A stretch of 64,000 nucleotides of DNA from Gracilibacillus orientalis (GTDB lineage: Bacteria > Bacillota > Bacilli > Bacillales > Amphibacillaceae). Location: NCBI RefSeq assembly GCF_900114645.1, contig NZ_FOTR01000004.1, positions 248,001 through 312,000 on the forward strand. Reading direction: 5' to 3'. Each line of letters opens with the position of its first letter. Position 1 is the first letter of the stretch. Positions 55,097-57,919 of this stretch are shown here, one piece after another. The notes beneath the pieces were generated by a model. The model ran no database searches. It saw only the letters and a program-made list of their open reading frames with translations, and was not told where the DNA came from. The position numbers and the translations under genes are program-made.

Positions 55097-55906
55097 ATGA
55101 AAATACGTTTGATCTGTTGCTTATTATTGTCGATGCTTATTAGCTCTCCGTTACTAGCTATACCTGATATACCGAAATTAAATAATGATGAATTAGACAT
55201 GATATTTTTTAATGTGCCTCATGGTGAAGCAAGTTTATTAACTAACCAACAAGGTCAACATATTTTAGTTAATACAGCTTCAAAAAGGAGTCAAAAAACG
55301 TTATACCAGCAATTAAGTAAATTGCAGGTGGACAAAATAGAAACCATTGTTATAACAAACCAATCAGAAGAATATACAGGTAACTTATTATATTTTTTAG
55401 AACATTATCAAGTCGAAAAGTTAATCATTCCTTCGAACATGAATGTTGAATTTTTAGAGGATGTTGACGTAGAAACATGGAAGCTTAATGAGGATTTTGT
55501 TCTTTGGGAAGATGTAAATATCCGAACGTTGGATGAAACAAAAGATGGAGATATTTCCTTTTTAATGCAATATGGCAAAGAATCCATATTATTTTTAAAT
55601 GACAAAGAAACGGCAATTGAAGAAAAATTAATTCAGCAGACAGGGGATGTAGATATATTAAAGGTAGCAGCTTTCGGTAGTGGACACTCACCATCGCAAA
55701 GCTTTCTGGAACATATTGATCCTTATATGAGTATTATTTTTCCGAGTCAAACTCATAAGATCAATGAATCATTAATTGAGCGATTAAACGCAACTTGGAT
55801 TGATGTCTACTTTTTGAAGCAGTCTGGTACCGTATTTGTACGTTTAAATAAGGATGATTACGAAATTCTCACGGAAAATAGTTCAATCAGCCTTTTATAT
55901 TCTTAA
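55097..55906 (+). CDS. Secreted metallo-beta-lactamase-fold protein with degenerate active site
   Basis: Protein of 269 aa with a signal peptide (about 1-22) and a ComEC/Rec2-type MBL fold. The core strand DMIFFNVPHGEASLL corresponds to the usual D-V-G-Q-G-D-A. The catalytic TH-D-D-H-G-G segment reads VITNQSEEYTGN, the ID-T-G strand reads VNTAS, and the HHGS region reads AAFGSGHS. All metal ligands are thus replaced, so it is probably not a hydrolase. It follows dinG by about 65 bp with its own AGAGGTAGG site. No counterpart is known to me at this position in B. subtilis. Confidence 0.65.
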   Translation: MKIRLICCLLLSMLISSPLLAIPDIPKLNNDELDMIFFNVPHGEASLLTNQQGQHILVNTASKRSQKTLYQQLSKLQVDKIETIVITNQSEEYTGNLLYFLEHYQVEKLIIPSNMNVEFLEDVDVETWKLNEDFVLWEDVNIRTLDETKDGDISFLMQYGKESILFLNDKETAIEEKLIQQTGDVDILKVAAFGSGHSPSQSFLEHIDPYMSIIFPSQTHKINESLIERLNATWIDVYFLKQSGTVFVRLNKDDYEILTENSSISLLYS

Positions 55907-56050
55907 ATGACCATATATATTTTAAAATCGACCATGTTTTCAGTTGAAAAATTAATCAAAGTCTATCAAAATAAATAGAGAAATGTCTTTTTAACAGCAT
56001 AGAAAGAAATTATTGCTTTCACTATGTTATATTTGATGGAGGTGTCTTAA

Positions 56051-56227
56051 ATAAACCATTCAAAAATTACTACACTGTCTACTGTTCAACTAACGTATAC
56101 GGAAGATTTGTACAAAATTGTCGACAGTTTAAATCGAACATTGAAAGAAGATGATCTTATGTTTGGATTAACATTAAGTGAGGATAATGATGAAAAAGCA
56201 ATTTTTACTATATACCGGACTCAATAA
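56051..56227 (+). CDS. ypmA: YpmA family protein (DUF4264), apparently with an ATA start codon
   Basis: Frame of 58 codons reading KITTLSTVQLTYTEDLYKIV and later LMFGLTLSEDN...IFTIYRTQ, the clear YpmA/DUF4264 pattern. A stop lies at 56048-56050, and the frame has no ATG, GTG or TTG early enough. GGAGGTG at 56038-56044 is six bases before ATA at 56051, so translation probably starts there; ATT at 56066 is too far. The 3' end overlaps ypmB by 38 bp. Small soluble protein, function unknown; order ypmA-ypmB-aspB matches B. subtilis. Confidence 0.8.
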   Translation: MNHSKITTLSTVQLTYTEDLYKIVDSLNRTLKEDDLMFGLTLSEDNDEKAIFTIYRTQ

Positions 56228-56717
56228 AATATGGATTTTCGTGTCATTAAGCATTATCGTCTTATTGATTGTTTTGTACTATTTCTTTTCGCTTTACCAA
56301 GACGTTATGAGTAATAAAACAGATAACTTTGACGAAATGCAAACTTTAGCAATGGAAAACACTTCACTTGATGTGATACATAGCATTGAACGATATCATG
56401 CCGATAAATTATACTATGTGTTAGATGGTGAAACGAACAATAACCAACCATCTTTAGTATATATGTATCAATCGGAAGAGGAATGGGAATTCGACACTTA
56501 TGATAAAGAACCACTTTACTCTGAAGATATTCTGTTATCAGAATGGCATGACCGATGTACATCTTGTGAATTTTTAGGTTCTACAGTTGGATTAGCTAAT
56601 GGTGATCCAATTCTCGAGATTAAATACGTTGATACGTCAGATAGACTGGTGTATGAACATGTATTACTAGAGGATAAATCACATTATCAATTAACTTTAA
56701 ACCCATCATTTCAATAA
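56190..56717 (+). CDS. ypmB: YpmB family membrane protein (DUF5590)
   Basis: Protein of 175 aa with one N-terminal membrane helix (about 11-34) and an outer alpha/beta domain of the PepSY-like DUF5590 type. The ATG at 56190 follows GTGAGGA. It overlaps ypmA and is followed after 20 bp by aspB. Function unknown; probably an extracytoplasmic accessory protein. Confidence 0.82.
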   Translation: MKKQFLLYTGLNKIWIFVSLSIIVLLIVLYYFFSLYQDVMSNKTDNFDEMQTLAMENTSLDVIHSIERYHADKLYYVLDGETNNNQPSLVYMYQSEEEWEFDTYDKEPLYSEDILLSEWHDRCTSCEFLGSTVGLANGDPILEIKYVDTSDRLVYEHVLLEDKSHYQLTLNPSFQ

Positions 56718-56737: not shown

Positions 56738-57919
56738 ATGGAATTAGCAAACAGAGTACAAACATTAACCCCATCATCAACGCTTGCGATTACAGCAAAA
56801 GCTAAAGAGTTAAGACAAGCTGGCCATGATGTTATTGGTTTAGGTGCAGGAGAACCTGATTATAATACACCTAAACATATTTTAGAAGCAGCATCTAAAG
56901 CAATGTATGATGGTTTTACTAAATATACACCTGCTGGAGGAACTGTTGAATTAAAGCAGGCAATTCAGTCAAAAATGAAACAAGATCAAGGATTAGATTA
57001 TGATCTTGACCAAATCATTGTAACAATTGGCGCAAAACATGCACTCTACACTTTGTTTCAAGTGCTGCTGAATAAAGAGGATGAAGTGATTGTTCCAGCT
57101 CCTTACTGGGTAAGCTATCCTGAACAGATTAAATTAGCTGAAGGTAAACCAGTATTTGTTGATGCACAAGAAAAAAATGAATTTAAATTAACACCAGAAC
57201 AATTAGAAAATGCCATCACAGAAAAAACGAGAGCTGTTATTATCAATTCACCTAGCAATCCTACAGGTGTTATGTATGAAAAAGAAGAATTAGAAGCTTT
57301 GGGAAAAGTATGTCTCAAACATAATATTTTAATCGTTTCAGATGAAATTTATGAAAAGTTGACGTATACATCAACAGAACATATTTCTCTCGCAGAGCTT
57401 TCTTCAGCATTTAAAGAACAAACTGTTATTATCAATGGCGTTTCAAAGTCACATTCCATGACTGGATGGAGAATTGGATATGCGGTGGGTAATAAAGCAA
57501 TTATTAAAGCGATGTCGAATTTAGCGTCACATTCAACTTCCAATCCTACTTCCATTGCGCAAGTAGCAGCACAAGCAGCTTATAATGGCTCACAACAACC
57601 GGTAAGTGACATGAGAGAAGCGTTTAGTGAACGATTAGAAAAATTATATGAATGGTTAGTCGCTATTCCAGGAATTGAATGTGTAAAACCAAAAGGTGCT
57701 TTTTATCTCTTCCCAAATGTGAAAAAAGCTGTTGAAATGAATGGATTTGATACAGTAGACGAATGGGTTACTGCTTTATTAGAAGAAGAAAAAGTAGCGT
57801 TAGTTCCAGGTTCCGGATTTGGTGCACCAAATAATGTTCGTCTTTCCTATGCTATTTCATTAGAGCAACTAGAAGAAGCAGCAAGACGAATTAAACGATT
57901 TATTGAAAATCATCAATAA
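56738..57919 (+). CDS. aspB: Aspartate aminotransferase
   Basis: PLP enzyme of 393 aa, the same length as in B. subtilis, of aminotransferase class I (subgroup Ib). [26 protein letters not shown] and the PLP lysine Lys237 in [16 protein letters not shown] are visible. It interconverts aspartate and oxaloacetate. Ribosome site AAAGGTG; asnS follows after 26 bp, linking aspartate and asparagine use. Confidence 0.96.

Follow-up and report, generated by a model that had tools for sequence, protein, structure and literature searches.

A conserved ATA codon as the putative start of ypmA in a clade of Gracilibacillus

The gene for initiation factor IF3, infC, is autoregulated by its own product, as shown in Escherichia coli. 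In Staphylococcus aureus, infC, ccpN and cvfC1 have AUA or AUU starts behind extended Shine-Dalgarno (SD) sequences, and the use of such starts with strong SDs has been proven by initiation profiling and reporters (PMC13009471). Reporters of ccpN, cvfC1 and an AUA variant of citZ gave about 10% of the AUG level, and the ccpN reporter reached up to 30% in rich medium (PMC13009471). Translation of RsbW in Listeria follows the order ATG > ATA > ATT, and fixed non-canonical starts are very rare there, accounting for 6 of 2,265 core genes (PMC13068326). IF3 favours codons whose third base pairs strongly (PMC10158994). Here we describe ypmA, the DUF4264 gene of Gracilibacillus orientalis, a member of a salt-loving genus, which very probably starts with an AUA codon that is conserved in its clade, most simply arose once from ATG and would be read by the ordinary initiator tRNA with the help of a strong SD.

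The ypmA frame and its surroundings

The window, that is, the whole 64,000-nucleotide stretch of G. orientalis DNA that was analysed, at positions 248001-312000 of G000:C27, contains a frame that the preliminary description had called an intact and recognisable ypmA lacking ATG, GTG or TTG ahead of its conserved core. Both claims are borne out: the frame matches the whole PF14084 (DUF4264) profile (positions 1-52 of 52; 76.9 bits, E=9e-22, cut-off 27), and it has no canonical codon before codon 20. Its features are as follows.

56051..56227, + strand: ypmA, 58 codons and a stop, a DUF4264 protein with a PF14084 match
56051..56053, + strand: putative start codon (ATA) of ypmA, at the alignment position where other YpmA proteins have their start Met; the same in 7/7 species of the clade
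56038..56044, + strand: Shine-Dalgarno GGAGGTG, read directly; seven bases matching the standard Bacillus anti-SD
56048..56050, + strand: in-frame TAA abutting the ATA, which rules out an in-frame start further upstream

The frame opens with ATA AAC CAT TCA AAA ATT and closes with TAA at 56225-56227. The ATA does follow the stop at 56048 immediately and does lie six bases downstream of a strong GGAGGTG, as had been stated, with TCTTAA as the 6-nt spacer. The first in-frame ATG, GTG or TTG is a TTG at codon 20 (56108), and ATA is the only start candidate before it. A mechanical ORF finder listed ypmA only as a 39-aa version starting at that TTG, so that the warning that such programs would miss the gene was justified. 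The anti-SD used here is the standard Bacillus one; the 16S 3' end was looked for in the draft assembly of the window genome and was not found. We know of no function for YpmA, and a search for a solved YpmA structure found none.

In Bacillus subtilis, ypmA is the first gene of the ypmA-ypmB-aspB operon (PMC4406074), and the same gene order is present in the window.

55944..55972, + strand: probable ypmA operon promoter, TTGAAA, 17 nt, CAAAAT, from a pattern scan
56190..56717, + strand: ypmB/tseB, an ORF frame whose first 38 bases overlap the end of ypmA, with GAGG at 56180-56183
56738..57919, + strand: gene for an aspB-like aminotransferase, in third place in the probable operon; its name was given by eye from the sequence and from gene order

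The pattern scan, which is weak on its own, gave no more hits than in shuffles; TTGAAA-N17-CAAAAT can be read 5' of ypmA in most Gracilibacillus species. Matches of the second gene to TseB are weak, both being under the curated cut-off. TseB is a cell-wall regulator that is co-transcribed with ypmA. A ATGAAAAAG-type ypmB/tseB start inside ypmA is conserved across the genus, and because ypmB/tseB begins inside ypmA (at 56190), its translation may be affected by the ypmA start.

Searches of the leader for riboswitches and known RNAs returned none, the sole sub-threshold match being a fungal snoRNA in ypmB, and RNA folding around the ypmA start gave nothing common to the ATA species. A possible hairpin (of the CATAG-AAAG ... 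CTTTC-CTATG type) lies 5' of the SD at about 56003-56033 and, by eye, is confined to the four closest ATA species. In G. massiliensis (L006; G009:C12:625759-625878), a copy of a dispersed repeat of about 120 bases sits just 5' of ypmA, in the place of the promoter region conserved in its relatives; this repeat has dozens of full or partial matches in each of three genomes searched, including that of the window itself. Further upstream, between dinG and ypmA, the gene at 55097-55906 is similar to the metallo-beta-lactamase-like C-terminal part of ComEC (46.6 bits to TIGR00361, under the cut-off) and has no Pfam match.

Distribution and origin of the ATA codon

Matching the 58-aa open frame located ypmA in 16 of 17 Gracilibacillus genomes, where the codon at the position of the YpmA start Met is ATA in seven, ATG in seven, ATC in one and TTG in one. 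The comparison of start codons in related genomes, proposed in the preliminary description, thus yielded ATA in seven separately assembled species: that of the window, its nearest relative G012 (a complete genome), G. kekensis, G. lacisalsi, G. massiliensis, G. suaedae and G. boraciitolerans. In all of them the codon occupies the same position behind GGAGGTG, a strong SD at the normal spacing of 6 nt, and TGGAGGTG is kept in 7/7 despite a leader that has diverged further upstream. More than 100 ypmA loci outside Gracilibacillus have ATG, TTG or GTG starts, and in 52 further genomes of the family a canonical start lies no more than a few codons from the alignment edge in every ypmA (some genomes occur in both sets). 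The ATC of species G015 (L017, locus position 1501), read in one assembly, also follows GGAGGTG and has no canonical start in frame close by; it is probably a second, independent non-canonical start in ypmA.

FastTree trees of 20 genomes were built from ypmA-region proteins and from ypmA-region DNA together with polC, rpoB, infC and aspB. The seven ATA species form one clade in the protein and DNA trees (protein support 1.00), with two ATG species as its sister and G015 branching next; the single-gene aspB tree did not resolve this, nor did a first concatenated tree resolve the key nodes. Because the ATA species form one clade in the multi-gene trees, the simplest history would be a single change from ATG to ATA in the ancestor of the seven species and a separate change to ATC, while a non-canonical codon in an older ancestor, followed by reversion to ATG, is less simple, costing one extra step. 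The codon preceding the ATA (codon -1) is CAA in five of the ATA species and TAA in the other two, that of the window and G. lacisalsi. Since the closest relatives of both have CAA, TAA would most simply have arisen twice, by two independent changes from CAA.

A survey of 397 kb around the window against 400 kb of G012, a rough filter covering part of the genome, kept 333 conserved coding ORFs, among which ypmA alone combined an ATA, ATT or ATC start and a strong SD with no usable canonical start; a genus-wide relaxation of start codon use was rejected on this ground. The few other flagged frames that were read looked like RNA genes, shadow frames, a possibly broken gene, or long open frames that start later. 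A conserved frame at about 201218-201635 of G000:C27 resembles a CAP/SCP-domain protein by eye; no canonical codon occurs in it before the TTG at codon 44, it has no SD-linked start, and it is possibly a broken or frameshifted gene.

The infC gene of the genus, a known positive control, starts with ATT behind GGAGGTGGCTG, a similar SD, which supports its earlier use as the classical ATT comparison. It reads CGGAGGTGGCTG ATT ATT AGC in 15 of the 17 genomes, the exceptions being G. halotolerans (L114), with AAT ATT, and G004 (L123), with ACT ATT. As all 17 genomes have the second ATT, two of them without the first, the second ATT may be the actual infC start in the genus. For ccpN, an AUA start is reported in S. 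aureus (PMC13009471) and conservation in B. subtilis is claimed. With ATG in the five Gracilibacillus loci read, ccpN is no evident second case in this genus.

Initiation at ATA and the alternatives

Of the 57 codons compared across the seven ATA species, 12 are identical throughout, 32 differ by synonymous changes and 13 differ in the amino acid encoded. Residues 3-14 are the same in all seven, though most of their codons vary in sequence; since these codons change only synonymously or not at all, the N-terminus appears to be translated, from before codon 3. As the window and, independently, G. lacisalsi have TAA at codon -1 followed by a frame that is still constrained, an N-terminal extension does not seem to be required. 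The retention of the ATA itself was compared with that of other codons of the window. Of 56 internal Ile codons that read ATA in the window, 6 (11%) do so in every one of the seven species. The final A is shared by all seven at 39 of 457 (8.5%) four-fold codons with that ending, and at 198 of 435 (45%) Lys, Glu and Gln codons with it, for which A/G exchange is the sole silent change. That the ATA has been retained thus speaks against an ordinary codon, but only to a small degree for selection favouring ATA over ATG, because the 45% among the latter codons indicates that shared ancestry accounts for much of the conservation of A.

These data bear on the possibility that the true start is a codon overlapping the SD, TTG/ATG at codon -5 or GTG at codon -3, giving M-E-V-S-Q-I-... 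with ATA as an internal Ile codon. Such codons are present at -5 and -3 in all seven species, and the frame is open from them in the five with CAA at codon -1. However, the window and, separately, G. lacisalsi close it with TAA and still show constraint on the frame that follows; the candidate codons are SD bases themselves and have no SD of their own; the ATG species of the genus begin ypmA, by alignment, exactly at the ATA position; and an internal ATA would remain ATA in all seven species in only 6 of 56 cases. This reading is therefore improbable.

In the window, ATG GAG GTG TCT TAA forms a four-codon frame at 56036-56050, which is not conserved: most relatives begin it with TTG and have CAA in place of the stop. 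Termination on this short frame might feed ribosomes to the ATA, which its stop abuts in the window and in G. lacisalsi. Yet no SD precedes the ATG at 56036, and the arrangement is missing in the five CAA species, so reinitiation would not be the general mechanism. As such it is highly improbable, with a minor contribution possible in the two species.

That ypmA became a pseudogene or fell silent in the clade after loss of its start codon is hardly credible. The ATG has indeed been lost, and the loss of a protein with no function known to us could be tolerable; but YpmA of the six relatives is 87.9-96.5% identical to that of the window, the 32 synonymously varying codons stand against 13 with an amino-acid change, and frame, SD and spacing are intact in 7/7. 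Finally, although a single-base change at 56053 (true base G) would restore ATG, the chance of a sequencing error there is negligible and was rejected, as the identical ATA in seven separately assembled species indicates that the codon is inherited.

We infer that ribosomes use the ypmA AUA: the ordinary initiator tRNA would start at this codon, held by the strong GGAGGUG across the 6-nt spacer, the codon having been kept since the putative change in the clade ancestor. Since IF3 selects against start codons with a mismatch at the third base, the AUA would probably lower ypmA initiation several-fold. Judging from the S. aureus and Listeria reporters, weak and IF3-sensitive initiation is a likely consequence; translation of ypmA is expected to reach a fraction of the rate that ATG would give, the AUA start probably keeping the YpmA level low, and ypmA may respond to IF3. 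By the same analogy, IF3-dependent control of ypmA is plausible.

Comparison with known systems and implications

Gene callers miss or misplace fixed non-canonical starts. The present case suggests that the annotation of ypmA in Gracilibacillus needs checking. With its position on a tree and sister species that have ATG, the putative change from ATG to ATA provides a natural test of whether weak starts are selected or only tolerated. The repeated appearance of ypmA starts that IF3 discriminates against (ATA once, and ATC in G015) might mean that a low or IF3-responsive level of YpmA relative to TseB has been selected; we consider this rather unlikely, but if it were true, ypmA would be the second gene besides infC to read the IF3 level in Gracilibacillus.

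Like infC with its AUU or AUA codon, ypmA has a putative AUH start behind a strong GGAGGTG-type SD. Yet the infC start codon is kept across the genus, whereas the ATA of ypmA is confined to one clade, and we know of no link of ypmA to IF3. The S. aureus genes cvfC1 (AUU) and ccpN (AUA) are similar in being Firmicute genes with a conserved non-canonical start and an extended SD, and cvfC1 also encodes a small protein (61 aa) and comes first in its operon; their starts, however, are established by ribosome profiling and reporters (PMC13009471), while that of the DUF4264 gene ypmA is predicted from sequence. In Listeria, rnhC (ATC) and the ATG-to-ATA variants of rsbW illustrate that ATA or ATT in place of ATG lowers translation, and the start codon changes follow lineages, as in ypmA; the rsbW changes, however, are recent strain variants, whereas the ATA of ypmA is fixed across species (PMC13068326). 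E. coli pcnB (AUU), as cited in PMC13009471, is a case where an inefficient start codon was proven experimentally to keep expression low, but it differs from ypmA in both gene and codon. A literature search found no paper on DUF4264 or the ypmA start codon. On this comparison, the AUA of ypmA appears to add a member to the known class of genes with AUH starts rather than a new mechanism.
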